64,000 nucleotides of DNA from assembly GCF_000949475.1 (NCBI RefSeq), contig NZ_JRHC01000001.1:1860001-1924000 (forward strand), written 5' to 3'. Positions 3,010 to 44,415 of the stretch are shown here, piece after piece. The DNA is from Draconibacterium sediminis. GTDB taxonomy: Bacteria > Bacteroidota > Bacteroidia > Bacteroidales > Prolixibacteraceae. The position numbers and the translations under genes are program-made. Below the pieces are notes generated by a model that saw only the letters and a program-made list of their open reading frames with translations, did no database searches and was not told where the DNA came from. Position 1 is the stretch's first letter. Each line of letters begins with the position of its first letter.

Positions 3010-3064
3010 GGCAAAAACTATGTTCAAATGAACAAGCCAAAATTATCTTTGATAGATATTTTTG
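3010..3064 (+). promoter_or_regulatory. Candidate regulator-controlled promoter, unit A
   Basis: GGC at 3010-3012, then TGTTCA at 3021 within a perfect inverted repeat TGTTCA-AA-TGAACA (3021-3034), then TATTTTTG at 3057-3064. The distance from TGT to the TAnnTTTG box is 36 bases and from GGC to TGT is 11 bases, the same geometry as before the genes at 7936 and 44480 and within one base at 35402. The GH27 start codon follows 42 bases after the box. Confidence 0.55.
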
Positions 3065-3105
3065 TGTTTGATATTTACATTTTCTAATTCAATAAATCAC
3101 ATTTG

Positions 3106-4491
3106 ATGAAAAAGGTTTTTTCACTTTGCTTTTTTATATCCGTTATAGCGTTTTCTGTCCAAGGGCAAAGGTTCGATTTTAAGAACTGGGCCGAAACACC
3201 TCCAATGGGATGGAATAGTTATAATTGTTACGGTGCAGCTGTTCAGGAAAAAGAAGTAAAAGCCAATGCCGATTACATGGCTGAAAAATTAAAGAATTTA
3301 GGTTGGGAATATGTAGTAATTGATTATTGCTGGTCGTACCCGCATCCACCAAACAGTACCCAAAATAATCCGCCACAATTTCGTTTAAGTAAAGATAATG
3401 CGCCGGTACCTTGGCTGGCAATGGACGAGTGGGGAAGACTTTTGCCTGACCCTCGTAAATTTCCATCTACAACTGGAAATGGCAGTTACAAACAGCTTTC
3501 GGATTATATACATAGTTTGGGATTAAAATTTGGAATTCACGTAATGCGGGGAATCCCACGTCAGGCTGTATGGGCGAAATCACCTATTAAAGGAACAGAT
3601 GGAATTACTGCCGATATGATTGCTGATACAACATCAATTTGCCCATGGTTAAACCAAATGTATGGAGTTGATATGAGCAAAGCCGGTGCTCAGGAGTATT
3701 ATAACTCCTTAGCTGAGTTGTACGCCGAATGGGGAGTTGATTATATAAAAATAGATGATATAGATTTAAAAGAAGGTTATCCATATCGTGGTAGTGAGGC
3801 GGAAGCCATGCACAAAGCAATTCTGAATTGTGGACGAGAAATGGTGCTAAGTCTTTCGCTAAATATGAAGCTGGAAAATATGGAGCATGTAAAATCTATT
3901 TCAAATCTGTGGCGTATTTCAAAAGATTTTTGGGATGACTGGAATTTGCTGAAAAACCAGTTTGAATTGCTCGATAATTGGGAAGCAGCCCGGGAACCCG
4001 GGAATTGGCCTGATGCCGATATGTTACAATTGGGGTGGATTTCTCGACGTGGGCCGCATGGTCCGGAACGTGAAAGCCAGTTTACAAAAGACGAGCAAAT
4101 AACACATATGACATTGTGGTGTATTGCTAAATCGCCACTTATGATGGGGGGCGATATGCCAGATAATTCTTCATTTGTCGAAAAACTTTTAACAGCCGAT
4201 GAAGTATTGGAAGCCAATCAGAATTCTTATGATGCCAGGCAGTTGTATCGAAAAGATGGACATGTGGTTTGGACTTCAAAGATCCCTGATTCAGAAGATA
4301 TTTATGTGGCATTTTTTAATCTGAATGAAAAAACGGAAACTGTTTCTGTTGATTTCAAGGAACTTGGATTAAAAGGAAAGTGCCATGTGCGCGATCTTTG
4401 GGAAAAAGAAGATGTTGGCAACTTCAGTAAAAGTTTTAGCCACGAAGTAAATTCGCATGGTGCACAAATTTTTAAAATAAGTAAAAAATAG
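3106..4491 (+). CDS. GH27 alpha-galactosidase-like enzyme, exported
   Basis: 461 residues counted from ATG 3106; the in-frame TTG at 3103 is less likely. The signal peptide ends near VQGQ. The mature protein opens with the GH27 signature PPMGWNSY and is a TIM barrel followed by a C-terminal beta domain (about 385-461). The nucleophile is expected at Asp217 in KIDD, and the acid/base at Asp274 in RISKDFWDDW. GH27 enzymes release alpha-galactose or beta-L-arabinopyranose from non-reducing ends. It is the first gene of a unit with two sulfatases, so the substrate is probably a sulfated glycan. Two other GH27 genes (7936, 38503) are clear paralogues; all three share an insert of aromatic and proline residues after the first barrel strand. 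Confidence 0.9.
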   Translation: MKKVFSLCFFISVIAFSVQGQRFDFKNWAETPPMGWNSYNCYGAAVQEKEVKANADYMAEKLKNLGWEYVVIDYCWSYPHPPNSTQNNPPQFRLSKDNAPVPWLAMDEWGRLLPDPRKFPSTTGNGSYKQLSDYIHSLGLKFGIHVMRGIPRQAVWAKSPIKGTDGITADMIADTTSICPWLNQMYGVDMSKAGAQEYYNSLAELYAEWGVDYIKIDDIDLKEGYPYRGSEAEAMHKAILNCGREMVLSLSLNMKLENMEHVKSISNLWRISKDFWDDWNLLKNQFELLDNWEAAREPGNWPDADMLQLGWISRRGPHGPERESQFTKDEQITHMTLWCIAKSPLMMGGDMPDNSSFVEKLLTADEVLEANQNSYDARQLYRKDGHVVWTSKIPDSEDIYVAFFNLNEKTETVSVDFKELGLKGKCHVRDLWEKEDVGNFSKSFSHEVNSHGAQIFKISKK

Positions 4492-4604
4492 AACTTAGTG
4501 GAATATGGGACTTAGTGTAAAGGGTGAAAACTTTCGTAAATACGGAAATAGTAAAATCAAGTAAGTTCTATCTTATTCTGTAGAAAACAAACAATATCAA
4601 TAAA

Positions 4605-6074
4605 ATGAAAAAATTAATTAATGGATTGCTTATCGGTATAATGCTTTTTAGCATGGCCTGCACTCCAACGCAAAAAGAGCAAGAAAAGAAAGTGCCTGAA
4701 TCACCAAATGTTATTCTGGTATTGGTGGACGACATGGGGTACGGCGACCTGAGTTTTTACGGGCAAAAAACCCTTTCAACCCCAATCATCGATAAAATGG
4801 CAACCGAGGGTATGCATTTTACTAATATGTATACCGGCTCAACAGTTTGTGCACCATCGCGGGCTTCCCTAATGACTGGTAAACATACCGGACACACTAA
4901 TGTTCGTGGGAATTTACCTGCTCAATTACTTAGCGACGATGAGTTAACCATTGCCAAAGTATTCAAGAATGCTGGTTATGTTACGGGTGGAATTGGAAAA
5001 TGGGGGATCGGTCACCCTCCTCCATCCGATGATCCTCAGAAAAAAGGTTTCGACTATTTTTATGGTTACATAAACATGTGGCATGCGCATAACTTCTATC
5101 CTGAGTTTTTAATCGAAAATGGAGAAAAAGTTCCGTTAAAAAACAAAACTACTTTGGTTGATGGAAAAAATCCTTGGGCCGACATGCCTGAAGGAACTGG
5201 TGTTGCTGCTGTTCGCGAAGAGTATGTTCACAACCTGTTTGATAAAAAAGCTATTGACTTTATTGAAGAGAATAAGGACAACAAATTTTTCTTATACATG
5301 GCTTATAATGTTCCGCATGCCAACAATGAAGGAGGTCCTTTTGCAGGCGACGGAATGGAAGTTCCCGATTATTATGAGTTTGCTGAAAAAGATTGGCCAC
5401 AACCCGAGAAAGGTTTTGCATCGATGATTCGGAACATAGATAATTCAGTTGGAATGTTATTGGACAAGGTTAAAGAACTTGGATTGGATGAAAATACCAT
5501 GGTAATTTTTTGTTCGGATAATGGGCCACACCAAGAGGGGCGTCATGTCATGGAATTTTTTAACTCAAACCGTGAATTACGCGGAATGAAGCGCGATTTT
5601 TACGATGGTGGTGTTAAAACGCCATTTATCGTTCGTTGGCCTGGTTCAGTTAAAGCTGGTTCAAAATCGGAACAAACTTTTGCTTTCTGGGATTTCTTAC
5701 CAACGTTTGCCGATCTGGTTGGAGGTGAAAAGCCTGTCGAGACAGACGGTATTTCTTTCCTTCCAACTTTGCTCGGAGAAGAACAAGCGGTAGAGCACGA
5801 TTATTTATACTGGGAATTTTTCGAATTGGGAGGTAAACAAGCCATTCTAAAGGGAAATTGGAAAGCAGTGAAGTTGAATGTTCGCGGACCAAAAGAAAAA
5901 GTGATTTTCGAATTATATAATCTTGAATCGGATCCGGAAGAAACAAACAACATAGCTGATCAGCATCCTGAGTTAGTAAAAGAATTTGAAGAGTTATTCC
6001 TTTCTGCCCGTGATGAGTTTGCAGTAACACCACTATTTGAGTCAGATGGAAAGGAAGTAGAAACTCCTTTTTAA
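4605..6074 (+). CDS. S1-family sulfatase, lipoprotein
   Basis: 489 residues; lipobox FSMAC with Cys19. The formylglycine motif CAPSR starts at Cys82, the metal ligands Asp42-Asp43 lie in LVDDMGYGD, and a second metal site is in CSDNGPH. The length and the TGKHTGHTNVRGN segment match arylsulfatase-A-like members, close in style to the S1_16 group from memory, which would fit galactose sulfates; this subfamily call is tentative. Formylglycine formation needs a maturase that is not in this window. It lies 113 bases after the GH27 gene and 16 bases before the next sulfatase. Confidence 0.93.
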   Translation: MKKLINGLLIGIMLFSMACTPTQKEQEKKVPESPNVILVLVDDMGYGDLSFYGQKTLSTPIIDKMATEGMHFTNMYTGSTVCAPSRASLMTGKHTGHTNVRGNLPAQLLSDDELTIAKVFKNAGYVTGGIGKWGIGHPPPSDDPQKKGFDYFYGYINMWHAHNFYPEFLIENGEKVPLKNKTTLVDGKNPWADMPEGTGVAAVREEYVHNLFDKKAIDFIEENKDNKFFLYMAYNVPHANNEGGPFAGDGMEVPDYYEFAEKDWPQPEKGFASMIRNIDNSVGMLLDKVKELGLDENTMVIFCSDNGPHQEGRHVMEFFNSNRELRGMKRDFYDGGVKTPFIVRWPGSVKAGSKSEQTFAFWDFLPTFADLVGGEKPVETDGISFLPTLLGEEQAVEHDYLYWEFFELGGKQAILKGNWKAVKLNVRGPKEKVIFELYNLESDPEETNNIADQHPELVKEFEELFLSARDEFAVTPLFESDGKEVETPF

Positions 6075-6090
6075 GAGCCAAAGTTGAAAA

Positions 6091-7506
6091 ATGAAAATAA
6101 CCAGATCAATAATAGCAGTTTTCCTTATAGGTTTATCTATTTTGTCATGCGGTGCACGAGAGATAGTAGCCGAGCAAAACGAAAACAAACCCTATAATGT
6201 CCTGTTTATAGCCATCGACGATTTAAACGATTGGACAGGTTTTGCAGGAGGACATCCGCAAGCGCAAACCCCAAACATGGATAAATTGGCCAAACAGGGG
6301 GTTGTTTTTGAAAATGCTTATTGTGCCGCCTCGGTTTGCAATCCGTCGCGTGCAGCTTTAATGAGTGGATATCGACCATCAACAACAGGTGTATATGGAA
6401 ATGGCACCCAAATGCGGGATTCTGAAGTGTTAAAAGATGCATTAACTATTCCGCAATGGTTTTCGAAACATGGTTATTTTACAACGGCGCGTGGTAAGAT
6501 CTTTCATTCGGCAAATGGCGAAAAAGCGGATACCATTTCGTGGGATAAATGGGTACAAACCACAGGTGGATACGGAGCTGTTAAAAAACAAGCTGGTTAC
6601 TTGGTAAATGGGATACCAAAAGGAGAAGCCGATGAAAATTTTGATTGGGGACCAACCGATGCAGCATTCGAAGAAACGCAGGATTATATTACCGCCAAAT
6701 GGGCTGCCGACCAGCTGGATAAGGACTACGACAAACCATTCTTTTTGGCTTGTGGAATTTTTCGTCCGCACCTTAAATGGCATGTTCCGCGAGAGTTTTT
6801 CGATAAGTTTCCTGAAGAAGAAATGATCTTACCCGAGGTAAATGAAAACGACTATGACGATATTCCAAATTCAGCGCTTGGTCCATCAAAAAATTACTTC
6901 GCTGCAAAAAAATATAAAAAGCAGCAAGCGGCTGTTCAGGCGTACCTGGCATGTATTAATTATGCCGATGCTTGTGTTGGAGTCGTTTTGGATGCATTGG
7001 CAAATAGCAAATACGCCAACAATACTATAGTTGTACTCTGGGGCGACCACGGCTGGCATTTGGGCGAAAAGCTTCGTTACAAGAAATTTACCCTTTGGGA
7101 AGAGGCCTGCAACATGCCACTAATTTTTAAAGTTCCTGGTGTTACTGAGGCTGGTTCTCGTTGCAACAATCCGGTAAGTTTAATGGATTTATATCCAACG
7201 CTTTCAGAATTGTGTGGCTTGCCTAAAAATGCTAAAAACGAGGGCAATAGTATTGTCCCTTTATTAAAAAATGTAAATGCTGACTGGGATAAACCAGCAC
7301 TTACGACACTCGGATTTAACCGTCACACTGTGCGCAATAAAAAGTGGCGGTATATAAGATATCAGGATGGTGTGGAGGAATTGTACAACCATGAAAATGA
7401 CCCGTTGGAATGGAAGAATCTGGCGAATGATCCACAGTTCAACTCAGTCAAGAATGAAATGAAAAAATACCTTCCAAAGGTCAATCATTATGAAGTAGAA
7501 AATTAA
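6091..7506 (+). CDS. S1-family sulfatase, iduronate-2-sulfatase-like, lipoprotein
   Basis: 471 residues; lipobox ILSC with Cys20. The formylglycine motif is CNPSR at Cys83, and Asp43-Asp44 stand in AIDDLNDW, a form typical of iduronate-2-sulfatase-like (S1_7-type) enzymes. GDHGWHLGE carries the second metal site. It is only about 30% alike to its neighbour by eye, so the pair probably removes sulfate at different positions. Last gene of unit A; a strong terminator follows at 7569. Confidence 0.93.
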   Translation: MKITRSIIAVFLIGLSILSCGAREIVAEQNENKPYNVLFIAIDDLNDWTGFAGGHPQAQTPNMDKLAKQGVVFENAYCAASVCNPSRAALMSGYRPSTTGVYGNGTQMRDSEVLKDALTIPQWFSKHGYFTTARGKIFHSANGEKADTISWDKWVQTTGGYGAVKKQAGYLVNGIPKGEADENFDWGPTDAAFEETQDYITAKWAADQLDKDYDKPFFLACGIFRPHLKWHVPREFFDKFPEEEMILPEVNENDYDDIPNSALGPSKNYFAAKKYKKQQAAVQAYLACINYADACVGVVLDALANSKYANNTIVVLWGDHGWHLGEKLRYKKFTLWEEACNMPLIFKVPGVTEAGSRCNNPVSLMDLYPTLSELCGLPKNAKNEGNSIVPLLKNVNADWDKPALTTLGFNRHTVRNKKWRYIRYQDGVEELYNHENDPLEWKNLANDPQFNSVKNEMKKYLPKVNHYEVEN

Positions 7507-7568
7507 TGTACTCTATAATAATGGATTAATTTGGTTAGTTAGTTAGTTAAATTAGTAGTTAGTTTGTT

Positions 7569-7603
7569 AAAGGACTTTTCATTTATTTGAAAGGTCCTTT
7601 TTT
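7569..7603 (+). terminator. Intrinsic terminator, end of unit A
   Basis: A 13-base left arm (7569-7581) pairs with 7588-7600 with one G-T wobble around a six-base loop, followed by three more T (six T in total). A strong terminator for the GH27-sulfatase-sulfatase unit. Confidence 0.85.
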
Positions 7604-7697
7604 AGTGTCTTAATCTGCCTCAAAAACTGATAATCAATTTAACTGAACTGAATCACTTTCTACACAGAGATTGAAATAAATTTTATCACACACTTAC

Positions 7698-7731
7698 AGA
7701 GTGTAAAAATCCTACAGAACATTTACACTCT
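7698..7731 (+). repeat. Inverted repeat, possible second terminator or regulatory site
   Basis: AGAGTGTAAA (7698-7707) and TTTACACTCT (7722-7731) form a perfect ten-base inverted repeat with a 14-base loop, followed by TTTG. It is less terminator-like than 7569-7603, and it lies about 150 bases upstream of the next promoter. Confidence 0.45.
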
Positions 7732-7832
7732 TTTGTAACTATATAAAAATAAATTGTACAAAACCTGGGTTTAATAGAAAGGCGTGCCTGTTAATGTATT
7801 GATATACAGGGAGTAGTGGGCGTATACAAAAG

Positions 7833-7887
7833 AGCAAAACAAGTGTACAACCAGATAAAAGCTTTTTAGGCTTAGAAAATATATTTG
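7833..7887 (+). promoter_or_regulatory. Candidate regulator-controlled promoter, unit B
   Basis: AGC at 7833 (GGC at other promoters), TGTACAACC at 7844, and a perfect -7 box TATATTTG at 7880-7887. Spacing is 11 and 36 bases. The start codon follows 48 bases after the box. It would drive the GH27 gene and, with no terminator before 20548, the two SusC/SusD pairs as well. Confidence 0.6.
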
Positions 7888-7935
7888 TTACTGAATTCGT
7901 GTTGAAATACCATTATAACGAAAAATAACAAATTT

Positions 7936-9363: not shown

Positions 9364-9578
9364 TAACTTATCAAAAATCTAATGTTTATGAAAAAAACTA
9401 TTCGAATGAAAAACCTAAAAGAACATTTACAAGGAAGTCCTTAATTCTCTTTTATAATGACTAAGCCAAGGTCAATTCAATTTTTATCAAAACAAACGAT
9501 GGAAAGTCGCATATAAAACCTACTTATCTAAAACCATTGGGGCTTTTCAGTAAGGAATTGATTAACTAATAATTTAAA

Positions 9579-12791: not shown

Positions 12792-12809
12792 CGATTAAAG
12801 CTTATAATT

Positions 12810-14681: not shown

Positions 14682-14703
14682 TAAACAAAACAGAAAAATT
14701 TAA

Positions 14704-19416: not shown

Positions 19417-19425
19417 AAATTGAAT

Positions 19426-20584: not shown

Positions 20585-20648
20585 AACTTTAAAACCAAAT
20601 ATTCTATAATCAATGAGTAATTTTGTTTACATCAAAACCAGATCAATA

Positions 20649-22351: not shown

Positions 22352-22416
22352 TGTACACCAAAACAAAACAAAAAAACACCAAAACAAAAGCCTCGAAACT
22401 TTACGGCCTAGATTTG
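22352..22416 (+). promoter_or_regulatory. Looser version of the shared promoter element, unit C
   Basis: TGTACACC at 22352 lies 87 bases upstream of the start codon, matching the 80-108 base spacing at other units, and a perfect -7 box TAGATTTG lies at 22409-22416. The distance between them is 57 bases rather than 35-36, which is 21 more, about two helical turns. No GGC at the matching upstream position (AGT instead). Confidence 0.4.
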
Positions 22417-26426: not shown

Positions 26427-26433
26427 TGTACAA
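26427..26433 (+). promoter_or_regulatory. Isolated TGTACAA copy before unit D
   Basis: TGTACAA lies 81 bases before the ATG at 26508, the usual distance for this motif in the window. No TAnnTTTG box stands 36 bases downstream; that position falls inside the terminator hairpin. It may be a weak or chance copy. Confidence 0.25.
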
Positions 26434-26452
26434 TCGAGGTAGATTTCAGAAC

Positions 26453-26490
26453 AAAAGAACAATTCAATTAAAGTGAATTGTTCTTTTTTT
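26453..26490 (+). terminator. Strong intrinsic terminator, end of unit C
   Basis: A perfect 14-base left arm (26453-26466) pairs with 26474-26487 around a seven-base loop, ending in seven T (26484-26490). It stands only 17 bases before the start of the next gene, which leaves no room for a promoter in between. Confidence 0.88.
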
Positions 26491-28682: not shown

Positions 28683-28684
28683 AA

Positions 28685-30430
28685 ATGAGGCAATTAGTAT
28701 TCTGTTTAATCATTGCAATATTACACGGATGTACTTCATCACAATCTAAAATTGATGGTACTTTATTTAAGTGGGAACCGATTACCATGTCTTTTATTGG
28801 TCCCAATTTTACTGAGTCGTCCGAAGTATTCAGAAATTATCGTTTAAATGTTACTTTTTATAACGAAAAGGATACGCTGATTGTGCCTGGTTATTTTGCC
28901 GCCGATGGCGATGCCGCAAATACATCTGCAAATTCTGGGAATATTTGGCAGGTTGTTTTTACACCCACCAAAGAGGGTGTTTGGTCTTACAAGGTTTCGT
29001 TTCAGTACGGCAAAGATTTGGCCGCCAGCCTTGACCCAAACGAAGGAAAGCCTCTCGCTTTTGATGGTGAAACCGGGAATTTTGAGGTGAACGGAATAAA
29101 TCCCAATGCAAAAGGAGCTTATGCCAAAGGGAAATTAATATACGTTGGACAACGCTATCTTCAGTATACCGGAACGGGTGAATGGCTTATAAAAGCCGGC
29201 CCCGGAGGCCCTGAAAACTTTTTTGGGTACGTTGATTTTGACAGCACTTTTAACGTGTCGGGAGGTATTAACGACAGCGCCTTAGGGCCTGACGGCCTGC
29301 ACAAGTACTCGCCTCACATACAGGATTGGAAAGAGGGTGATCCTGTGTGGAAAGGCGATAAGGGTAAAGCCATAGTTGGAAGCATTAATTACCTGGCCGA
29401 AAAAGGTGTAAACTCGCTTTACCTGGTAGTAAACAATGTAAACGGAGATGGACGGGATTGTTGGCCCTGGGCCGGGTATAACGATCGAGATATTTATGAT
29501 GTTTCAAAATTGGCGCAGTGGAATATCGTTTTCAAACATATGAATGAAAAGGGAATTCAACTGGATTTTTTGTTTTGGGAATCTGAAAATACCACCTTGT
29601 TGAATAATGGTAATTTGGGCGTGGAAAGAAAAATTTATTACCGCGAGTTACTTGCACGTTTTGGGCATTTGCCTGCAATACGATGGAATATATCGGAAGA
29701 ACCAACAGCAACGCCAGAACAGATTTTGGCCGATGTGGATTTTATCAGTCGCATTGATCCATATGGTCACGCAGTTGGAGTTCACTGCGGATATACCGTT
29801 GAACGTCGCGACAATGAATATCCTCCTCTGCTTGGAAAAGAAAATTTTGACGGGGCATTTATGCAATGCCACGAGAACTTGCACGACGAAGTTAAACGCT
29901 GGCTTCAGAAGTCCGAAAAATCAGGTAAAAAATGGGTGGTAAGTGTCGATGAATCTTTACCAAACCATCCTGCTGATATCGAAAAGGTTCGTCGCGAATT
30001 TTGGGAAGTAGTTACCGCCGGAGGAGAAGGCTACGATGTGTATTTCGGCTATGGAACCGGAACATGTGATATTGCCAATGAAGACTTCCGTAATCGCGAT
30101 AAAAAGTGGAGCCAGTTAGCTATAGGATTAGATTTCTTTAACAACACCGAGTTGAATCAGCTTCTCCCATATATGAAGAACTATGATGATTTGGGAACAG
30201 GGTATATTCTTGCAAAACCAGGAGAGATGTATGTAATGTACACCACCCTGGATAAAAATACCATTGATTTGACCGACTTTACTCAAGAGTTTGAGATCGA
30301 CTGGCTCGATATTAATAACGAAAGCGGACTTTTAAAAGGCAGTATCGAAAAGGTAATGGGGGGCCAGATTGTTGATTTGGGGAATGCCCCGTCAACAAAA
30401 ACAGATTGGGTGGTTTGGATTCATTATTAG
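28685..30430 (+). CDS. DUF5060-containing glycoside hydrolase, lipoprotein
   Basis: 581 residues, two bases after the previous gene. Lipobox LHGC with Cys16. An N-terminal DUF5060 beta-sandwich (about 25-130, with FKWEPITMSF and IWQVVFTPTKEGVW) precedes a TIM barrel (about 140-500) and a small C-terminal beta domain. The candidate acid/base Glu lies in RWNISEEP and the nucleophile in VVSVDESLP, as in clan GH-A-like retaining enzymes. DUF5060 proteins occur in algal-glycan loci, but the activity of this one is unknown. Translational coupling with both neighbours is likely from the spacing. Confidence 0.75.
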   Translation: MRQLVFCLIIAILHGCTSSQSKIDGTLFKWEPITMSFIGPNFTESSEVFRNYRLNVTFYNEKDTLIVPGYFAADGDAANTSANSGNIWQVVFTPTKEGVWSYKVSFQYGKDLAASLDPNEGKPLAFDGETGNFEVNGINPNAKGAYAKGKLIYVGQRYLQYTGTGEWLIKAGPGGPENFFGYVDFDSTFNVSGGINDSALGPDGLHKYSPHIQDWKEGDPVWKGDKGKAIVGSINYLAEKGVNSLYLVVNNVNGDGRDCWPWAGYNDRDIYDVSKLAQWNIVFKHMNEKGIQLDFLFWESENTTLLNNGNLGVERKIYYRELLARFGHLPAIRWNISEEPTATPEQILADVDFISRIDPYGHAVGVHCGYTVERRDNEYPPLLGKENFDGAFMQCHENLHDEVKRWLQKSEKSGKKWVVSVDESLPNHPADIEKVRREFWEVVTAGGEGYDVYFGYGTGTCDIANEDFRNRDKKWSQLAIGLDFFNNTELNQLLPYMKNYDDLGTGYILAKPGEMYVMYTTLDKNTIDLTDFTQEFEIDWLDINNESGLLKGSIEKVMGGQIVDLGNAPSTKTDWVVWIHY

Positions 30431-30439
30431 GATTATTAC

Positions 30440-31969: not shown

Positions 31970-31976
31970 TTACAAA

Positions 31977-32765: not shown

Positions 32766-32772
32766 ATGAGGT

Positions 32773-35233: not shown

Positions 35234-35310
35234 TCAGGTGTTATTTTTTGTACTGGCGGTGAAGTCAACGTATTGTTTGATGCTGACTTATTTTTTGGTA
35301 TGCACAAATA

Positions 35311-35364
35311 GGCTTAAAGAATGTACAAACAACCAACTCAATGAATCAATTTTAAACTTATTTG
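35311..35364 (+). promoter_or_regulatory. Candidate regulator-controlled promoter, unit E
   Basis: GGC at 35311, TGTACAAACAACC at 35322, and CTTATTTG at 35357-35364, one base closer than at the other promoters and with a weaker match at the first two positions of the -7 box. The GGC-TGT distance is 11. The 18 bases from GGC (GGCTTAAAGAATGTACAA) closely match those before the SusC at 44480. The start codon follows 37 bases later. Confidence 0.55.
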
Positions 35365-35401
35365 CAAAAAAAAAATCATAAACCATATAACTTGATAATT
35401 C

Positions 35402-36649
35402 ATGATGAAGTCTTTTTATTTATTTCTACTAGTTGCAATTGTAGTTTCAGCTTGTACTGTTTCTAGTAAAACAGATTCAACAATAAAATCGGTTAAAACG
35501 CGTATTCAATCCCGTAATTATCCTTCGTTATTTCAGGCTTGGTATGGAATTGATATGCCCGAATATCCGCAAACCACCAATGAACAACGTTTGCAGGCAG
35601 CCGCAAAACACGATTTGCTGTGGGAAGAACCATTAAGTCAGTTAGGCGAAAATGTTGATCTTACCCTAGGGCTTGTTTGGGATCATGATAATCATGGATT
35701 GGCAACTAATTTTACTGAAGAAAGTCTGTCTCATGCTTTGGCGAATAGAAAACGCATGTTGGAACTGAATCCGAACATGATATTTTTATTTGAGGTGCGC
35801 TGGCGGGATGCTCCAATGAGCTTCTTACCTGAAAACAGTGACTGGTGGCTACGTAACGATGAAGGGGAAATTGTAAAAGGTTGGCTGGGAGGCTGGGAGC
35901 CTTTTTATATGTTGAATTATAATAATCAGGATTTTCAGGAAAACGTGGCGCGTCAATGCAAAATTGCCATCGAAAGCGGGGTATATGATGGTGTGATGTT
36001 TGACTGGAGTGGCCATCTTGAAATCATTAAAAAAACACGAGCTGCCATTGGCGACTCTGCTTTAATAATCGTAAACATTCACGATGATATTCACCATGGT
36101 ATGGATTATCAACCGTACATAAACGGCTCTTTTATGGAATTGAATCCTATTGACAGCCTGAGTTTACCTGTTGATGAACTTGTGTTGAATAGCAAAGATG
36201 ATGTAAATGCACGTACCTGGGATAACATAAGAGATGCTTTAATATGGTTTGAAGAAAACCTACAAGAACCCAGAATTAATTGTTGCGAGGTATGGGGAAA
36301 CCGCGATGATCTCTCGCGTATGCGCGCCGTAACAACATTAACTCTAACACACTCTGATGGCTACACTTTGTATGCTGATCCAAATCCATTGAAAACTCCG
36401 GACCACTATCACGACTGGTACCCGTTTTGGGATGCTGATCTGGGAAAACCACTTGGCAAGAGAATAGACAGGGAAGACGGTGCTACTTTACGCGAATTTG
36501 AAAATGGTACGGTGGTGTATAACCATTACGGGAATAATTCAGTTAAAATTGAATTTAACGAAGAGTACAAACGCATCTCGGATGGTAGCACAGACAAAGT
36601 ATTTAATGTTAATGGTCGCGATGGAGATATTTTTTTAAAGATCAAATAG
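35402..36649 (+). CDS. GHL15-like putative glycoside hydrolase, lipoprotein
   Basis: 415 residues; lipobox VSAC with Cys18. A TIM-barrel-like sequence with SLFQAWYGID near the start, DLTLGLVWDHDNHG, and VYDGVMFDWSGHLE, where the Asp of DGVMFDW stands at a barrel strand end as in hypothetical glycosyl hydrolase families of the GHL15 type. NCCEVWGNRDDLSRMRA and HSDGYTLYADPNP are conserved-looking blocks late in the barrel. No activity is known to me. It is the first gene of the unit with the symporter and cytoplasmic GH27, so it may act just before uptake into the cytoplasm. Confidence 0.6.
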   Translation: MMKSFYLFLLVAIVVSACTVSSKTDSTIKSVKTRIQSRNYPSLFQAWYGIDMPEYPQTTNEQRLQAAAKHDLLWEEPLSQLGENVDLTLGLVWDHDNHGLATNFTEESLSHALANRKRMLELNPNMIFLFEVRWRDAPMSFLPENSDWWLRNDEGEIVKGWLGGWEPFYMLNYNNQDFQENVARQCKIAIESGVYDGVMFDWSGHLEIIKKTRAAIGDSALIIVNIHDDIHHGMDYQPYINGSFMELNPIDSLSLPVDELVLNSKDDVNARTWDNIRDALIWFEENLQEPRINCCEVWGNRDDLSRMRAVTTLTLTHSDGYTLYADPNPLKTPDHYHDWYPFWDADLGKPLGKRIDREDGATLREFENGTVVYNHYGNNSVKIEFNEEYKRISDGSTDKVFNVNGRDGDIFLKIK

Positions 36650-36675
36650 ATTAACTAATTCATAATCTGGAAAAT

Positions 36676-38475
36676 ATGGCTTTGCATTGGCTCGATTTTA
36701 CTGCCTTTTTTACTTACTTCATTTTACTCAGTGTTATTGGCTGGCTGGCAGGAAGAAGTAAAAAACAAATGGCATCTGATTACTTTTTGGCAGGGAAATC
36801 ATTACCCTGGTATGTTGTTGGTAGTTCGTATATTGCCGCAAATATAAGTACCGAACATTTTTTAGGAATGATTGGTGCCGCTGTACTTTATGGTATTGTG
36901 GTTGCAACTCCTGAATGGAGTGCAGTTATTGCTTTTACCTTTCTGATTTGGTTGTTCATTCCTTTTCTTCTTTCTTCGAAAGTATATACAACTCCCGAGT
37001 TTCTGGAAAAAAGATTTAATAGGCAAATTCGGTTTATTTTCGCTTTAATAACAATAATTGCAAATATTTCCGCATTTATGGCACCCGTAATTTATGGCGG
37101 AGGATTAATTGTAGAAGAAGCCTTAGGATTTAACCAGTTGTTTGGATTGAATGTTGAAGCAATTAACAATGGTGCCGCCACAAACTGGGGATTGTTTTTC
37201 TCAATTGCCTTAATTGCTTTCGCTGCCGGAATATGGGCCATATGGGGGGGCTTAAAATCCGTGGCCTGGATGGATGTACTTACAATAGTAATAATGGTTG
37301 CCGGCGGATTAACCGTAACAATTCTCGGATTGGCTTACATTAGCGATGGACAAGGTATTGTTGCCGGCTTCAGGAAAATGGTTGATATTAATACCGCTAA
37401 TAGTGGCTGGACAAAAGAATGGCTTGATACACATGTGGTAAATATCCTGAATGGTGCAACAGAGGGGGCTTCTTATAAACGACTTTCGGTATTGCAACCC
37501 ATTAATCACAGCGTTACGCCATGGACTCACTGGGTGTTTTCATTCTTCTACATTGGCTTGTGGTACACGGTAATAAACCAACACATGATTCAAAAGGTGT
37601 TTGCAGCAAAAGATATCTTTCATGCACGTATGGGAATGGTATTTGCTTCGTTTTTGAAGCTCTTACTACCTTTTATAGTTGTTATACCCGGATTGATCTA
37701 TTTTGCAATGAATCCTGATTTTCTGCATAGTAATAATTGGAACTTTATGCGAGAAGAGGCCAATAAAACATATATTTTGATGATTGGCAGATTAGTGCCT
37801 GTGTTTTTAACAGGATTTCTGTTGGCAGCCTTATTTGGAGCAATTCAAAGCACAGTTAGTTCAGTACTCAATTCGACCTCAACCATTTTTACTATGGACT
37901 TTTATAAAGAGTACTTAAACAAAGAAGCAAGCGAAAGAAAAGAAATTAGAATGGGTAAGATATCCGGAACTGTAATTCTCATATTTTCCATAGCACTGGC
38001 TATTTTTCTGGCGCTAACCAAAATAAACATCTTTGTGTATATACAAACCATGTATACGTTTATTGCTCCGCCATTTTCAGCTATTTTTCTTATCGGTATG
38101 TTGTGGCGGCGGATTAATGGTAAAGATGCTTTGTTTGCCATTATTGGTGGTTTTGCTCTGGCTGCCATTTTAAAATACCTGGAACTTGGACCATTGGCAG
38201 AGGTAGATACACCATTTGCCAATTTTATTAAACCCTTTGCCAATCAGGGATTAATTGTGTGGGGATTTAGTATGTTAATTGCTGCAGTTTCAGGATTAAT
38301 TACTCCACCACCTGCTCCTGAAAATGTAGGAGACGGACTTGCTTTCAATTTCAGAAAGATGAGCCTGTTAAAAGGTGGACTGGGCACTAATTGGTACAAC
38401 AGTGTTACGCTTTGGTGGGGCATCTGTTTCTTGCTGATGATCGTGTTTGTTTTGGTGTTTTCGTTGTATATATAA
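36676..38475 (+). CDS. Sodium/solute symporter (SSS family)
   Basis: 599 residues with about 13-14 membrane helices and no cleavable signal peptide. SDYFLAGKSLPWYVVGSSYIA and the ANISTEHFLGMIG segment are typical of the SGLT-like branch of the solute:sodium symporter family, which imports monosaccharides or small glycosides across the inner membrane with sodium. WAIWGGLKSVAWMDVLTI is the usual helix 5 region. Located 26 bases after the GHL15-like gene and 27 bases before a GH27 that lacks a signal peptide, it is the likely route of the final saccharide into the cytoplasm. Confidence 0.93.
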   Translation: MALHWLDFTAFFTYFILLSVIGWLAGRSKKQMASDYFLAGKSLPWYVVGSSYIAANISTEHFLGMIGAAVLYGIVVATPEWSAVIAFTFLIWLFIPFLLSSKVYTTPEFLEKRFNRQIRFIFALITIIANISAFMAPVIYGGGLIVEEALGFNQLFGLNVEAINNGAATNWGLFFSIALIAFAAGIWAIWGGLKSVAWMDVLTIVIMVAGGLTVTILGLAYISDGQGIVAGFRKMVDINTANSGWTKEWLDTHVVNILNGATEGASYKRLSVLQPINHSVTPWTHWVFSFFYIGLWYTVINQHMIQKVFAAKDIFHARMGMVFASFLKLLLPFIVVIPGLIYFAMNPDFLHSNNWNFMREEANKTYILMIGRLVPVFLTGFLLAALFGAIQSTVSSVLNSTSTIFTMDFYKEYLNKEASERKEIRMGKISGTVILIFSIALAIFLALTKINIFVYIQTMYTFIAPPFSAIFLIGMLWRRINGKDALFAIIGGFALAAILKYLELGPLAEVDTPFANFIKPFANQGLIVWGFSMLIAAVSGLITPPPAPENVGDGLAFNFRKMSLLKGGLGTNWYNSVTLWWGICFLLMIVFVLVFSLYI

Positions 38476-38502
38476 TCGAATGATAAGGATAGATTTTTTT
38501 GA

Positions 38503-39819
38503 ATGAACATTATGAATAATATTAGTGATTTGGCACCTCAACCCCCAATGGGATGGAATAGCTGGGATTGTTTTAGTGTGACGGTAACTGAGCAGGAAGT
38601 TAAGCAAAACGCTGATTTTGTTGCCAAACATCTTAAAAAATATGGATGGGAATATATTGTGGTTGATTTGGCCTGGTTTGCACCGGGAGCCGACCATACA
38701 AATTATAAAAAAGAGAATATACCTCAGCTGATTGACAAATTCGGGAGACTCATTCCTGATCCCGAAAAATTTCCGTCATCCGCTAACGGAGCCGGCTTTA
38801 AACCACTGGGCGATTATGTGCACCGCTTAGGGTTAAAGTTTGGCATTCATATTATGCGAGGTATTCCAGTGCAGGCGGTCGAACAAAAGTGCAAGGTGAA
38901 GGGTACCGCTTTAACTGCCGACCAGATTTCGTACGATCGCGAACGTTGTCCGTGGTATAATAGTTTGCGAACCCTTAATTTTGCAGATAAGGGAGCACAG
39001 GAATACTATAACTCAATTTTCGAATTATATGCCTCGTGGGGAGTAGACTATATTAAGGCCGACGATTTGAATGCATGGCACGAAGTAAACAACAGCGATG
39101 GTTCGCCAACAGGTGAAGGTTCTCCATATCGTATTGATGACATTGAAGGAATTGCCAGTGCAATAAAAAATTGTGGAAGACCAATGGTACTTAGTATTTC
39201 CCCAGGGGGACCGGAAACAACAGTTATAAATCACTTACGAAATCATACAAATCTATGGCGTATATCTGCAGATTTTTGGGATGAATGGGGTTCGCTAAAA
39301 AAGCAAATGGACCGATGCGCAATCTGGGCTCCTTTTATAAAACCTGGCCACTGGCCCGATGCCGATATGCTACCTCTCGGATATATGCCTCGTGGCGAAT
39401 CTGGCGGTCAGCAACGCTTTAGTAACTTTACTGCTGATGAACAGAAAACCGTTATTTCGTTGTGGTGTATGTTTCGTTCGCCATTAATGTTTGGTGGAAA
39501 TTTGCCACAGTGTAATGATGAAACAATTGCATTATTAAGCAATAAAGATGTTTTGGAAATTAACCAGTATTCAAAAAATAACCGTGAGGTTTATTGCGAT
39601 GATACTGTTCGGGTTTGGACAGCTGAGTCAACACTTCTGGACGCAAAATACCTGGCTGTATTTAATATTTCAGATGTAGATATAACTTACAGGTTGGATG
39701 TAGATGATTTTGGGATAAAAAAAACTGAAAGTGGTGTAGACTTGTGGAGTAAAAATAGAATAGTTTTTCATAACGAACTTAAGGTAAATGCCCATGGAGT
39801 TCGTTTATTTAGGTTTTAG
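38503..39819 (+). CDS. Cytoplasmic GH27 alpha-galactosidase-like enzyme
   Basis: 438 residues starting MNIMNNISDLAPQPPMGWNSW, with no signal peptide; the catalytic domain begins about ten residues in. Predicted nucleophile Asp187 in YIKADD and acid/base Asp257 in RISADFWDEW. The C-terminal beta domain (about 345-438) ends HGVRLFRF. The two other GH27 paralogues of the window are exported. Its position directly after the symporter suggests that an alpha-galactoside is taken up intact and split inside the cell. Terminator at 39837. Confidence 0.9.
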   Translation: MNIMNNISDLAPQPPMGWNSWDCFSVTVTEQEVKQNADFVAKHLKKYGWEYIVVDLAWFAPGADHTNYKKENIPQLIDKFGRLIPDPEKFPSSANGAGFKPLGDYVHRLGLKFGIHIMRGIPVQAVEQKCKVKGTALTADQISYDRERCPWYNSLRTLNFADKGAQEYYNSIFELYASWGVDYIKADDLNAWHEVNNSDGSPTGEGSPYRIDDIEGIASAIKNCGRPMVLSISPGGPETTVINHLRNHTNLWRISADFWDEWGSLKKQMDRCAIWAPFIKPGHWPDADMLPLGYMPRGESGGQQRFSNFTADEQKTVISLWCMFRSPLMFGGNLPQCNDETIALLSNKDVLEINQYSKNNREVYCDDTVRVWTAESTLLDAKYLAVFNISDVDITYRLDVDDFGIKKTESGVDLWSKNRIVFHNELKVNAHGVRLFRF

Positions 39820-39836
39820 TTTGGTTAGTTATTGAG

Positions 39837-39862
39837 AGAAGTATCCCACATGGGATACTTCT
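39837..39862 (+). terminator. Hairpin terminator, end of unit E
   Basis: A perfect 12-base inverted repeat: AGAAGTATCCCA (39837-39848) and TGGGATACTTCT (39851-39862), separated by two bases, followed by TATTTT. The loop is tight, so the innermost pairs must open. A dyad of this quality 27 bases before the regulator gene could also be a protein-binding site. Confidence 0.65.
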
Positions 39863-39888
39863 TATTTTAATTCAAACTCTTTGAGGCG

Positions 39889-42800
39889 ATGAATAAGGTT
39901 TCTTTCATATTTTTGGTTTCACTTTTTCTGGTAAGTCATTTATATGCTCAGAATCTTAAACGTTTTAAACATCTCGATCTTAATAATGGCCTCTCTCATA
40001 CTGATGCAACCTGTTTTGCTCAGGATGAAGTTGGATATATGTGGATAGGCACTTATAACGGACTTAACCGTTACGATGGATACGAAATTAAACAGTTTAT
40101 TAACGAACCAAATAATCCGGAAAGGGTTTATCTGAACCGCATAAATGTATTAAAAACTCAAGGAAATTATTTGTGGGTTGGGACTCAAAAAGGCATTCAT
40201 CTTTTTAGTACCGAATATTTGAAATTTAGTAACCTGAATGTAGTTGATGGGAATAAAAAACAGTTGAATCTCGGGAATATTAAATCGATTTATACTCATG
40301 ATTCAACACTTTGGTTTACTTCAGATAATAAACTTTTTAAAGGAGTTTTTTCGATCCAGAACTCGACATTGGAAGTTGTTTCAATAGATGAATTTGTAAA
40401 AAAAATTCCAAAAGAATTTGAACACTTAATCTTAGGAGAAATAACAGGTGTTGATGATAAGGTTATCTGGTTAAGTACCAGTAAAGGATTTTATGAGCTC
40501 GAAAAAGCAGAGAACCTTTACCATATTAAAAAAATACCACTATCGAATGATAATCTTACCACCGAAATTGCACATAGCATAACACGACAGGGAAACATGT
40601 TATATGTTTCACACGGGCATTTATTACATATCTATCTACTCCAATCCAATTTTTCGGTAGGCTCGCTTATTAAATCTATTGACGTATGTGCCTTGATTGA
40701 AAAGGAATACAAAATTAGTACGATTGATTTATTTGCATTAAAGGTTGATCGGGAAATGAATTTATGGTGCTCAACAACCAAGGGAGTGTTGTTGCTTTCT
40801 GACCTTTTGTCGAAGAAAACTTCCGTAGATCTGTTGCGTCATTCCAAGTATGATGCTCATTCAATCTCAGGGGATCATATATCATCTCTTTATATGGATA
40901 ACAATAATTGTTTATGGATTGGAACGTGGGGAAGTGGTGCCAATATATTAAATCTTGGGCAATATAAATTCAATGTTTTGAATCAGAATCCTGATCGCCA
41001 GAAATATAATCTTTCAAACGACTTTGTACGCTGTATTGCTGAAGATAAACAAGGTAATGTTTGGATCGGATATAAAGGTGGCGGGCTTGATATGTTTAAT
41101 CCTCAAACAGGTGTGACTACCCCATTTCGTTCAGCGAATGGAGCCGGGCAAGAAACGCTGTTCGATGATGTACGAAGTATAGATGTTGGAAATAAATTTA
41201 TAGCAATAGGATGCACAAAAGGTTTAGCGCTTATTGATTTAAAAACCAGATATGTGTACGAGTATATGTCTGATCCTGAAGATGTAGGTTCTATTTCTCA
41301 GGGGCCGATATTTTCCGTTAAAATAGATGACTTAAACAATATTTGGGCAGCAATGTGGGAAAGTGGCCTGAACAGGATAAAAGTAGATGAAAACTATCAA
41401 ATCAGTGTAAAAAAACTTAATGCAACAGATTCTCCTCTGCTAACTTCTAATTCCATTGTGTTCCTGGCTTTTAACAATGATCGAAATCAACTTTATGCAT
41501 CTTCAAATAGAGGATTAAATCGAATATACCTGGATAACAACAGAAATGTTGAGCGTATTGTACATTACAAAGCAAATGACTCGGATTCATCCTTAAGAAG
41601 TGAATATGTTTGGCCATTGGTTGTTGAAAATGATTCAACACTTTGGATAGGCACATTGGGCGGAGGCTTGCATCTTCTTAACCTGAAAAGTAAGGTAATT
41701 GGTACTATTGGAACCTATTCAGCCGAAAACTTCTTGTTTAAAGTAATGAATACAATGGATGTAGAAGTTCTGGAAAAAGATAATAATGGTAACATTTGGG
41801 TTGGTAGTCGTGGTTTGGTAAGGTTGAATCCAAAAACAAAAAACTATCAATATTTTGATGAAGACGATGGTTTACATGGTAATGGATTTAAAATTGGTTC
41901 CTCATTTTTGTCACAAAAGGGTACCGTTTATATGGGAGGTATTAATGGATTAACCTATTTTGATCCAAAGGAAATAAACCGAATGGAACTATCCTGCAAC
42001 GTAAAGTTGATAAAGCTTAAAGTTAACAACAAAGAGGTAGTTGTAGGTGATTCGATAAACGGGCGCAGAATACTTGAAAGAGAGCTAGCCTTAACCGATA
42101 GAGTGGTATTAAAACACGATGAGAACGATTTTTCAATTCAATACGGGAATTTGCACTTTTTGAGCCAGGGAAAGGAATGTATCCGTCATCGTTTGATACC
42201 GGTACAAGACGAATGGCAAGCCGATAACGACTTTTCAATGGAGGCAAAATATTCAAACCTATCTTACGGTAGTTATATTTTTCAGGTAATTGGAGCAGGA
42301 AAAGAAGAGGGTGATAAGGGGAATATTGTTGAATTGGAAATAGTTATTAAAGCTCCATGGTATTTAACTGGTATTGCAATTATTGCCTATTTTCTTCTGG
42401 GAAGCCTAATATTTATAGCAATTCTGTTGTATGCCCGGCGACTGATGTATATGAAACACAATCTTAGGGTAATGGAAGCAGAAGAACAAAAACGAGAAGA
42501 ACTTCATCAGCACAAATTGCAGTTTTTTACTAATATTTCACACGAATTTAAAACACCCTTAACTTTAATTCATTCTCCTCTTGAAAAGCTATATGACGAA
42601 GAAAAGCCGCAAGGAGAACGTAAGGAATTATATCGTTTGGTTTTTAATAATACACAACGTTTAAGTCGTTTGATAAATGAATTAATGGATTTTCGAAAAG
42701 CTGAGCTAAATAAACATTCACTGAAACTACAGACAACTGACTTAAATTCGTTGGTAGATGATGTATTTAAACAATTTAGTTCTCTCGCCGCGAATAAAGG

Positions 42801-44121
42801 AATAGCTTTGTCTTATAATTCCAATTCCTGTCCTAATATTTTAGTGGATAGAGACAAGGCTCAAAAGGTAATTACCAACCTGTTTTCAAATGCTTTAAAA
42901 TTTACTCCTGAAAATGGCAATGTTGATGTAAGAACATATAGTGGCAATATTGATAATCTAGATTTTAAATTTGCAAATAATTATTCGGAAGTTGGAGATT
43001 GTCAGTGCGAAAAATATGTTTTTGTTGAGGTTGAAGATACAGGGGTTGGGATATCCTCAAAATCGATTAATGCAATTTTTGACCGTTATTTTCACGAAAA
43101 CATCGACCATAATAACCATTTGGGATCTGGAATTGGTTTGGCACTGGTTAAAAGTTTTATATTGTTGATGCAGGGGTGTGTTTTCGTTTCCTCGGAGCGT
43201 AATAAAGGAGCTCAATTTATTGTTGGATTTCCTTGTGGAGATGCACATGTTTTGAAGACAAATTCAATAATTGTAGATAATGAAGCATTGCATGACGATG
43301 GGGAGGAATTCGACTTAATAACTGGTAAAGATGAATCCAAGGACAAAAATGTTTTGTTATTTGTTGAAGATAACTCGGAATTACGGAATATGCTGATTCA
43401 GCACTTTAAAACACAGTACAATGTTTTTGGCGCAGAAAATGGGCAGGTTGGCTTGTATACGGCAAAAGAAAAAGTGCCAGACTTGATAATATCCGATGTA
43501 ATGATGCCGAAAATGGATGGTGTAGAAATGTGCCGTCTGATACGTGATGATTTGAATACCAGTCATATTCCAATTATTTTGCTAACGGCCAAATCATCAA
43601 TTGATAATCAAATTGCGGGTGCTGAAAGTGGTGCGGATAGTTTTATCTCAAAACCATTCAGTTTAAAACTGCTTGAGGCAAATGTGACAAGAATTCTTGA
43701 ACATCATCGCGTTTTAAAAGAACGGTACTCAAAAAATATCTTCTCGAATACCCGCGAGATTATACGCAATGCAAAGGACAAAGAATTTTTTGATAAACTG
43801 ATGGGGATTATTGAAGAGAATATTGAAAATCCGGAATTTACTGTAGAAGATTTGGTGCCGGAATTGGGTATAAGCCGAACAAAATTATATCAGAAAATAA
43901 AGGGAGTAACCGGAAGTTCTCCTCTTGAATTTATACGTAGTCAACGTCTCAAGTTGGCAGCAAAGATACTTTTAACCGAAGGTGTGACAATTTCAGAAGT
44001 AGTTTATCGGGTTGGCATCCAATCAACCAGTTATTTCTCGAAAGCTTTTAAAACTGAATTTGGAATGACACCATCAGAATTCTTAAAAAAATACGAGAAA
44101 ACAGGCGAAAAAACATTGTAG
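39889..44121 (+). CDS. Hybrid two-component system sensor/regulator (HTCS)
   Basis: 1410 residues. Signal peptide ends at LYAQ. Residues about 25-720 carry two-propeller Reg_prop repeats (MWIGTYNGLNRYDG, LWVGTQKGIHLF, LWIGTWGSGA, VWIGYKGGGLDMF, LWIGTLGGGLHLL), then a Y_Y_Y domain (about 745-815) and one membrane helix (about 824-850). The kinase has the phospho-acceptor His885 in NISHEFKTPL, and N and G boxes near 1000 and 1050. A receiver domain (about 1152-1270) has phospho-Asp1203 in SDVMMPKMDG, and an AraC-type DNA-binding domain ends the protein (about 1310-1402). It senses an oligosaccharide in the periplasm and activates the locus. It appears to be the only regulator in the window. Confidence 0.97.
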   Translation: MNKVSFIFLVSLFLVSHLYAQNLKRFKHLDLNNGLSHTDATCFAQDEVGYMWIGTYNGLNRYDGYEIKQFINEPNNPERVYLNRINVLKTQGNYLWVGTQKGIHLFSTEYLKFSNLNVVDGNKKQLNLGNIKSIYTHDSTLWFTSDNKLFKGVFSIQNSTLEVVSIDEFVKKIPKEFEHLILGEITGVDDKVIWLSTSKGFYELEKAENLYHIKKIPLSNDNLTTEIAHSITRQGNMLYVSHGHLLHIYLLQSNFSVGSLIKSIDVCALIEKEYKISTIDLFALKVDREMNLWCSTTKGVLLLSDLLSKKTSVDLLRHSKYDAHSISGDHISSLYMDNNNCLWIGTWGSGANILNLGQYKFNVLNQNPDRQKYNLSNDFVRCIAEDKQGNVWIGYKGGGLDMFNPQTGVTTPFRSANGAGQETLFDDVRSIDVGNKFIAIGCTKGLALIDLKTRYVYEYMSDPEDVGSISQGPIFSVKIDDLNNIWAAMWESGLNRIKVDENYQISVKKLNATDSPLLTSNSIVFLAFNNDRNQLYASSNRGLNRIYLDNNRNVERIVHYKANDSDSSLRSEYVWPLVVENDSTLWIGTLGGGLHLLNLKSKVIGTIGTYSAENFLFKVMNTMDVEVLEKDNNGNIWVGSRGLVRLNPKTKNYQYFDEDDGLHGNGFKIGSSFLSQKGTVYMGGINGLTYFDPKEINRMELSCNVKLIKLKVNNKEVVVGDSINGRRILERELALTDRVVLKHDENDFSIQYGNLHFLSQGKECIRHRLIPVQDEWQADNDFSMEAKYSNLSYGSYIFQVIGAGKEEGDKGNIVELEIVIKAPWYLTGIAIIAYFLLGSLIFIAILLYARRLMYMKHNLRVMEAEEQKREELHQHKLQFFTNISHEFKTPLTLIHSPLEKLYDEEKPQGERKELYRLVFNNTQRLSRLINELMDFRKAELNKHSLKLQTTDLNSLVDDVFKQFSSLAANKGIALSYNSNSCPNILVDRDKAQKVITNLFSNALKFTPENGNVDVRTYSGNIDNLDFKFANNYSEVGDCQCEKYVFVEVEDTGVGISSKSINAIFDRYFHENIDHNNHLGSGIGLALVKSFILLMQGCVFVSSERNKGAQFIVGFPCGDAHVLKTNSIIVDNEALHDDGEEFDLITGKDESKDKNVLLFVEDNSELRNMLIQHFKTQYNVFGAENGQVGLYTAKEKVPDLIISDVMMPKMDGVEMCRLIRDDLNTSHIPIILLTAKSSIDNQIAGAESGADSFISKPFSLKLLEANVTRILEHHRVLKERYSKNIFSNTREIIRNAKDKEFFDKLMGIIEENIENPEFTVEDLVPELGISRTKLYQKIKGVTGSSPLEFIRSQRLKLAAKILLTEGVTISEVVYRVGIQSTSYFSKAFKTEFGMTPSEFLKKYEKTGEKTL

Positions 44122-44360
44122 TACAGGGTCGTATTTTATAAAATATTTCATCAATATTATTACTCCTATGTGCATAGGTTTGAAAATGAATTACGATCAG
44201 AGATAACATGCTTATATTTTCAATGCTGAAAGTAGTAATATGATTTAAGTATGCATATGGTTAGAGGTATGAAGCAGTGTTGTTTTGGATAATTATTTTT
44301 TATGAATTTTGCCTTGTTATGGTGTTGATAATAAGCGCTTATTGAGCGTGTGAAGAAATG
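44122..44360. other. Intergenic region between regulator and SusC
   Basis: No gene found. Directly after the regulator is an AT-only palindrome TATTTTATAAAATA (44132-44145), too weak to be called a terminator. The rest is unstructured by eye until the promoter element that begins at 44361. Confidence 0.55.
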
Positions 44361-44415
44361 GGCTAATTAAATGTACAATTGAAATAGTCTGTTCTGTATT
44401 GTGGGGCTACATTTG
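44361..44415 (+). promoter_or_regulatory. Candidate regulator-controlled promoter, unit F
   Basis: GGC at 44361, TGTACAA at 44372 and a perfect -7 box TACATTTG at 44408-44415; spacing 11 and 36 bases. The start codon of SusC is 64 bases after the box, a longer leader than at the other promoters. Confidence 0.6.

Follow-up and report, generated by a model that had tools for sequence, protein, structure and literature searches.

A predicted direct-repeat operator for one clade of hybrid two-component regulators in a sulfatase/GH27/SusCD locus of Draconibacterium sediminis

The stretch analysed here, called the window, comprises 64,000 nucleotides of Draconibacterium sediminis (G000:C1:1860001-1924000 of the 5.99-Mb own genome, G000) and carries a locus of sulfatase, GH27-like (glycoside hydrolase family 27) and SusC/SusD genes. 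At least five, and probably six, promoters of this locus carry a predicted operator, i.e. the direct repeat TGTACAA-N3-RGC-N8-TGTACAA, in which the half-sites (13-bp consensus TGTACAA-N3-RGC) are 21 bp apart and the upstream half is the weaker one (Table 1). With a probability of about 0.86 we take this element to serve one clade of hybrid two-component system (HTCS) regulators as operator, namely as an activator site that would be bound by a dimer at a fixed distance from the -7 promoter box, and the putative reader to be the HTCS encoded at 39889, a paralogous HTCS at window coordinate 98680 (about 35 kb beyond the window), or both. For one HTCS clade this gives a precise predicted operator, defined by half-site, spacing and promoter register, together with a list of its candidate target promoters.

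A first-pass annotation of this DNA had described GGC or AGC, eight bases and TGTWCA, followed by a TAnnTTTG-like box, at four promoters (u1 to u4 in Table 1), and all four sites lie where it placed them. The observation is real, and the four sites are not due to chance. The hexamers are 80-108 bp 5' of the start codons (82 or 85 bp for the one at 3021, depending on the start codon). The reported excess of intergenic TGTACA was likewise reproduced: there are six copies (7755, 7844, 22352, 26427, 35322 and 44372) in 4120 bp, the mean expectation being 1.07 in an order-1 Markov model, and none of 400 simulations reached six. TGTWCA shows no enrichment when the window is counted in full (61 matches vs 77 expected). 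The genome-wide search with RGC-N8-TGTWCAA-N29-TAnnTTTG returned three exact matches in 5.99 Mb, i.e. u1, u2 and u4 (control 0), and zero further places at one mismatch; the site at 35311 (u3) is outside the exact matches because its box, CTTATTTG, is poor (4/6 bases) and lies at 35 bp. The same search gave two exact matches in the related genome G064 (u2 and u4; control 1), one exact match (u2) and one unrelated place at one mismatch in G063 (control 1), and one place at one mismatch in G023 (control 0). The element as first described was real but partial, since a degenerate TGTACAA-like half 21 bp upstream had been overlooked at all four places, and the GGC is the inner part of half-site 1 rather than a separate box. 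The 21-bp direct repeat is thus found at these promoters, half-site 1 being degenerate at u1 and u4.

The conservation of the element was examined in G064, where the locus is syntenic from 3106 onward (reciprocal best hits, 69-97% identical; none for 165-2360 and 28685-30430). When the u2, u3 and u4 promoters of the two genomes are aligned, the conservation begins at the upstream half-site and not at the GGC. The ungapped identity over the 28 bp of the operator is 28 for u2, 27 for u3, 25 for u4 and 28 for u5, a site found by the 21-bp repeat alone, which we firmly add as a further predicted operator. For the other sites the values are 25 (26427), 22 (22352) and 16 (u1) and, beyond the window, 25 (76378) and 27 (94162). 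The 60 bp 5' of the operators are identical at 13-27 of 60 positions, an ungapped count that is an underestimate where indels occur. The G064 counterpart of 76378 (C5:1402554-1402618) repeats TGTACAATCAG perfectly at 21 bp and has a 5/6 box at +57, and at 94162 half-site 2 is divergent (CGTACTC) yet identical in G064. The sites are therefore conserved before orthologous genes in genomes with orthologous HTCS, weakly in the case of u1; a lack of conservation in orthologous loci, which had been named as grounds for abandoning the element, is not what the G064 promoters show, as they keep the sites.

More distant relatives add to this picture. G063 has on contig C63 a block GH27-sulfatase-sulfatase-GH27 (81-85% identical). 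One of its GH27 genes follows u2 at a distance of 112 bp, and the other is preceded by a u1 of weaker sequence (TGCACTA...CGTCCAA, box TAGATTTG at +57). In G023 (C85) operators stand before a GH43 gene and a GH27-like gene, on either side of the HTCS. G234, from another family, has on C105 a tandem site before the GH43 gene that heads the run containing its HTCS; its homologue of 22439 (35% identical) is preceded by a perfect TGTACAA-N14-TGTACAA with a 5/6 box at +57, and weaker sites, found with a matrix that includes the box, lie before a GH27-like gene and other genes. In G798, which belongs to another order, a perfect TGTTCAAATCAGC-N8-TGTTCAAATCAGC tandem at 21 bp lies between an HTCS and a SusC gene (C14, ~387880-387950), and the DNA-binding domain there is 51-52% identical.

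The distance to the promoter box was determined on sites selected without regard to the box, i.e. intergenic tandem TGTWCAA with at most three mismatches in total and a gene within 160 bp, in 12 regions. A TAnnTTTG with at least 5/6 bases starts exactly 57 bp after the start of half-site 1 (36 bp after half-site 2) in 17 of these 30 sites; the 17 amount to 11 promoters once orthologues are merged and the doubtful 26427 is included. The remaining 39 offsets combined hold 21 such boxes, about 0.5 per offset. A larger tally of 25/27 at +57 is biased, because many of its sites were found with the box-including matrix. TAnnTTTG is the -7 element of the primary Bacteroidota promoter (PMC7366714), and the present locus likewise has putative -7 boxes resembling TAnnTTTG before its starts.

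Specificity was assessed with the full pattern TRYACAA-N3-RGC-N8-TGWWCAA-N29-TANNTTTG at up to three mismatches in 140 genomes of the family, with the reversed pattern as control. Exact matches were found in 4/140 genomes, one in each: u2 in G000 and in G064, G023:C85:3398 and G063:C63:16096. At two or fewer mismatches there are 11 places, nine of them in these polysaccharide utilization loci (PULs) and two elsewhere (G039 and G062); the latter two are alike and appear by look to be coding DNA. Within G000, three or fewer mismatches gave six places (doubtful 26427 included) and the control one; all six are forward and in C1:1863000-1936442, i.e. in promoter orientation within 73 kb of a 6-Mb genome. 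Neither the genome-wide nor the family-wide search bears out the other objection anticipated by the first-pass annotation, that the pattern would be just as common before unrelated genes.

The sites accompany a particular group of regulators. HTCS 39889 is a single chain with a propeller and Y_Y_Y sensor, HisKA, HATPase_c, a receiver and an AraC-type helix-turn-helix domain, all above the Pfam cut-offs. It is 39% identical to HTCS 98680 overall and 54% in the DNA-binding domain, and the receivers of both contain the SHIP motif. A tree built from 15 full-length HTCS places seven of them in one clade (support 100/99). The 39889 type is present in G000 and G064 and the 98680 type in G000, G064 and G063 (100/100), and the HTCS of G023 and G234 join the 98680 type at 92/91 and 80/91, i.e. 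with moderate support. DNA-binding domains like that of 39889 (E<=1e-31, among at most 31 candidates scored per genome) were found in G000, G064, G023 and G063 (54-100% identical) and in G131 (46%), and the genomes with an exact pattern are the four in which a domain at least 54% identical turned up. Tandem sites were moreover scored in 78 of the 90 sources with an HTCS DNA-binding domain, a score of 2.0 or below being counted as good. Good matches among the ten closest are the own locus, G064, G234, G023 and G798; G063 was scored as a miss in this ranking, its HTCS contig alone having been scored. Related DNA-binding domains thus accompany related motifs, with L179, G131, G303 and G894 as exceptions. 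When the full HTCS was used as query, the best 80 loci included no close orthologue, the top full-length match being 35% identical (records of the own or very near genomes may be left out there); these loci were used for comparison. Taken together, the 21-bp repeat, the conservation of the locus, the co-occurrence with the HTCS clade and the fixed distance to the -7 box support well the proposed HTCS operator in an activator position.

The HTCS at 39889 had been proposed as the natural regulator. It stays a candidate but not the sole one, the paralogue 98680 being at least as good. It is quite conceivable, if tentative, that the 98680 type is the ancestral and main reader, and that 39889 is a fast-evolving duplicate which shares or modulates the operator. 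The 98680 type is firmly placed in three genomes vs two for the 39889 type, with G023 and G234 joining it moderately, and the 39889 type is less conserved between G000 and G064 (77% identical, the adjacent SusC being 97% identical) than the 98680 type (91%). There is also a precedent in the paralogous pair BT4111/BT4124, which was proposed to share a motif (PMC3878776). However, this argument is built on presence and absence in draft genomes, and both HTCS could bind equally. The single clade HTCS of G023 and of G234 is probably of the 98680 type, and is possibly older than the split between 39889 and 98680 (support 80/91).

We regard it as unlikely that HTCS 39889 alone binds the sites while 98680 binds other DNA. 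Its gene is inside the locus, in the run behind u3, and only the two genomes with the 39889 type showed u3 and u4 (the loci of other genomes being seen in part). Yet G063 has operators before its GH27-like genes, and the clade HTCS found there is of the 98680 type only (71% identical), absence in G063 and G023 being no proof at completeness values of 94% and 76%, respectively. G023 and G234 also have operators and one clade HTCS each, grouping with 98680, and near the 98680 gene itself such sites precede 76460 and 94260. No sequence difference between the sites of 39889 and those of 98680 was evident by eye. An HTCS within a locus may therefore not be the sole reader of its operator, which may belong to the clade, i.e. 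to 39889, 98680 or both. The earlier interpretation is in this sense partly supported: it had the right kind of element, but saw only part of it and narrowed the regulator down too far.

A number of observations weigh against an operator of this HTCS clade or limit the tests made of it, and are collected here. The spacing of tandem TGTWCAA in the intergenic DNA of both loci has a weak peak at 21 in G000 (9 vs at most 7 elsewhere), and in G064 the seven cases at 21 are tied with 13, 20 and 23; since this test is weakly peaked, the case rests on conservation and box register. Without the box, RGC-N8-TGTWCAA is weak evidence (59 genome matches vs 38 for the reversed control), and two half-sites with at most three mismatches are at chance level in G000 (94 vs 102 in the control; 104 vs 74 in G064). 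The register has its exception in u3 in both genomes (4/6 box, at +56 in G000 and +57 in G064), the counterpart of u1 in G064 is degenerate (16/28 identical), and the tandem in G798 faces the HTCS, away from SusC. The full pattern was built from the G000 and G064 sites, and one base (TGWWCAA) was relaxed after G023 and G234 had been seen; G023 is for that reason no independent test, and only the G063 site was wholly unseen. At three mismatches the pattern is unspecific, as 56/140 genomes have a place, about 86 in total vs 31 in the control, and the locus holds five of the six G064 places and one of the three G063 places, the rest lying elsewhere. Among the lower-ranked HTCS loci, 2/68 (L171 and L200) have good tandem matches. 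Conversely, L179 (domain 54% identical) has no tandem site in the 1171 bp of intergenic DNA available, and no convincing TGTWCAA tandem was found in G131 (46%), G303 (50%) or, by score, G894 (47%).

A single repeat, found in G038, G070 and G061, accounts for ten of the roughly 86 places. This 65-bp sequence (TGCACAACTCACCA...TATCTTTC) matched the pattern at three mismatches. G038 has six copies, of which three lie 4 bases from the end of a contig, and this suggests a mobile element.

We consider it very unlikely that a separate one-component regulator, e.g. of the LacI, GntR or Crp type, reads TGTACA and that the HTCS is a bystander. TGTACA is palindromic, like many half-sites of dimeric repressors, and TGTWCA pairs do occur near some of the sites (e.g. 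3021/3029). The conserved unit is, however, a head-to-tail repeat at 21 bp and not a palindrome, and in two genera of the family the sites accompany the HTCS clade. Moreover, at Pfam thresholds the HTCS alone has a DNA-binding domain among the window proteins (35/36 genes scanned; 62700 and short ORFs were outside the scan). Chance resemblance in AT-rich promoter DNA is hardly credible despite the near-control counts obtained without the box, as with box and geometry the best genome matches are these sites, conserved inside diverged DNA; in our view chance is refuted for u2, u3, u4 and u5, and could still account for 26427.

AraC-family proteins have two helix-turn-helix motifs per monomer, which touch successive grooves. 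From the repeat and its register, together with the way it is conserved and accompanies the clade, we infer a possible mode of binding. Each half-site, with its parts about one turn apart, would take one AraC-type domain with its two motifs, and a dimer would occupy the head-to-tail half-sites from one side of the helix, their spacing of 21 bp being two turns. Phosphorylated HTCS dimers would then occupy both half-sites and end about 23-30 bp 5' of the -7 box. A dimer placed adjacent to and upstream of RNA polymerase could recruit the polymerase and so activate transcription. As u3 is ahead of the run that ends in the HTCS gene, self-activation would be possible. The S/CHIP motif of the HTCS receiver has been linked to repressed DNA binding in the unphosphorylated state (PMC11253607).

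Among the regulators of Bacteroides PULs, HTCS proteins form a major class (PMC11253607). In B. thetaiotaomicron, motifs were predicted for 16/36 HTCS, all of them direct repeats with a mean spacing of 21 bp, and related HTCS share motifs (Ravcheev et al. 2013, PMC3878776). The element described here is of the same kind: a direct repeat of about 21 bp before susC-type or PUL operons with an HTCS in the locus (here u4 before SusC, and HTCS 39889), and related DNA-binding domains with related motifs. The half-site predicted here, for an HTCS clade outside B. thetaiotaomicron, is TGTACAA-N3-RGC. A fixed distance to the -7 box is seen here, whereas the motif section of that paper describes none. 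The proposal that BT4111 and BT4124 share one operator, HTCS_Rgu-1, in a joint regulon parallels that made here for 39889 and 98680, which belong to neighbouring loci about 55 kb apart. For fragments of the BT4124 and BT4663 HTCS there is evidence from electrophoretic mobility shift assays on promoter DNA (PMC11253607); like them, 39889 has a receiver joined to an AraC-type domain, and its receiver carries the SHIP motif.

A check of generality covered 138 loci with 109 HTCS and 59 SusC genes, which gave 37 SusC promoters near an HTCS; this set contains most of the 21 promoters examined first. In these 37 promoters self-similarity is highest at 21 bp (mean Z 1.47; the best spacing for 12/37), followed by 22 bp (Z 0.42, best in 7/37), and no clear peak is seen in the nine SusC promoters that have no HTCS within two genes (0.50 at 21, 0.77 at 25). 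Of the 20 strongest repeats, 11 have a box (at least 5/6) 44-54 bp downstream of the centre of half-site 1 (null mean 2.6; reached in 0/5000 shuffles), and a 10-bp window centred on the value of this operator contains 7/20 (p 0.008). Both windows were fixed after the list had been seen, and some of the promoters are related (two Maribacter loci). A Bacteroidota-wide rule, by which an HTCS operator would be a 21-bp repeat at a fixed -7 register shared by neighbouring paralogous HTCS, seems to us somewhat short of an even bet. If it were true, any HTCS, even one of unknown ligand, would reveal its operator and regulon through its SusC promoter. The literature search turned up predicted HTCS operators for Bacteroides only, and no HTCS operator register is named in the titles and abstract openings searched (figures, supplements and subscription papers were outside the search); the available passages of PMC11501099, PMC10994844 and PMC12125979 contain no HTCS operator data.

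Table 1. Predicted operators, -7 boxes and associated genes (window coordinates, continued beyond 64,000).
Feature	Position	Strand	Remarks
Operator u1, before GH27-like gene 3106	3000..3027	+	TGTATGA-N3-GGC-N8-TGTTCAA
-7 box of u1	3057..3064	+	TATTTTTG, 57 bp from half-site 1 start
Operator u2, before second GH27-like gene 7936	7823..7850	+	TATACAA-N3-AGC-N8-TGTACAA; exact full-pattern match
-7 box of u2	7880..7887	+	TATATTTG at +57
Operator u3, before 35402	35301..35328	+	TGCACAA-N3-GGC-N8-TGTACAA
-7-like box of u3	35357..35364	+	CTTATTTG at +56; poor, 4/6 consensus bases
Operator u4, before SusC gene 44480	44351..44378	+	TGAAGAA-N3-GGC-N8-TGTACAA
-7 box of u4	44408..44415	+	TACATTTG at +57
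Additional operator u5, before 49378	49285..49312	+	TGTACTG-N14-TGGACAA; found by 21-bp repeat alone
Box of u5	49342-49349	+	TTATTTTG, 5/6, at +57
Weak operator, before 22439	22352..22379	+	half-site 1 TGTACAC, half-site 2 degenerate
Box of weak operator 22352	22409-22416	+	TAGATTTG at +57
Doubtful operator, before 26508	26427..26454	+	TGTACAATCGAGG, then AGAACAA
Same-kind operator beyond window, before gene 76460	76378 (G000:C1:1936378; L308:6378-6405)	+
Conserved site beyond window, before 94260	94162 (L102:10162-10189)		TGTACAATTGTGTTAAACTTGCGTACTC, box TAGGTTTG at +57
HTCS, candidate regulator A	39889..44121	+	Pfam domains, SHIP motif, tree
SusC/RagA-family transporter behind u4	44480..47455	+	Pfam

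The site at 26427, tried as an additional operator, was downgraded to doubtful: its 'box' is, by eye, the T run of a terminator-like hairpin (GAACAATTCA/TGAATTGTTC).

The genes of the window include three Melibiase_2 proteins, which we take to be GH27, many sulfatases, GH43, 3-keto-disaccharide hydrolases, SusC/SusD and one HTCS, a set that suggests a sulfated, galactose-containing polysaccharide as candidate substrate. The gene run behind u3 extends from 35402 to 44121, its last gene being HTCS 39889. Between the third GH27-like gene and the HTCS there is, by eye, a terminator-like hairpin with a T-rich tail (AAGTATCCCACATGGGATACTT, 39839-39868), of which G064 keeps the stem with an altered loop; it could perhaps restrict read-through into the HTCS gene. 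The gene at 28685-30430, which has a DUF5060 domain, is without a counterpart in the otherwise syntenic G064 locus. Beside the GH43 genes, 60711-61379 encodes a 222-aa N-terminal piece of SusC with CarboxypepD_reg and plug domains only. Its counterpart in G064 is likewise 222 aa long and 78% identical, so that the piece is perhaps a conserved short SusC-like protein rather than a case of fresh decay.

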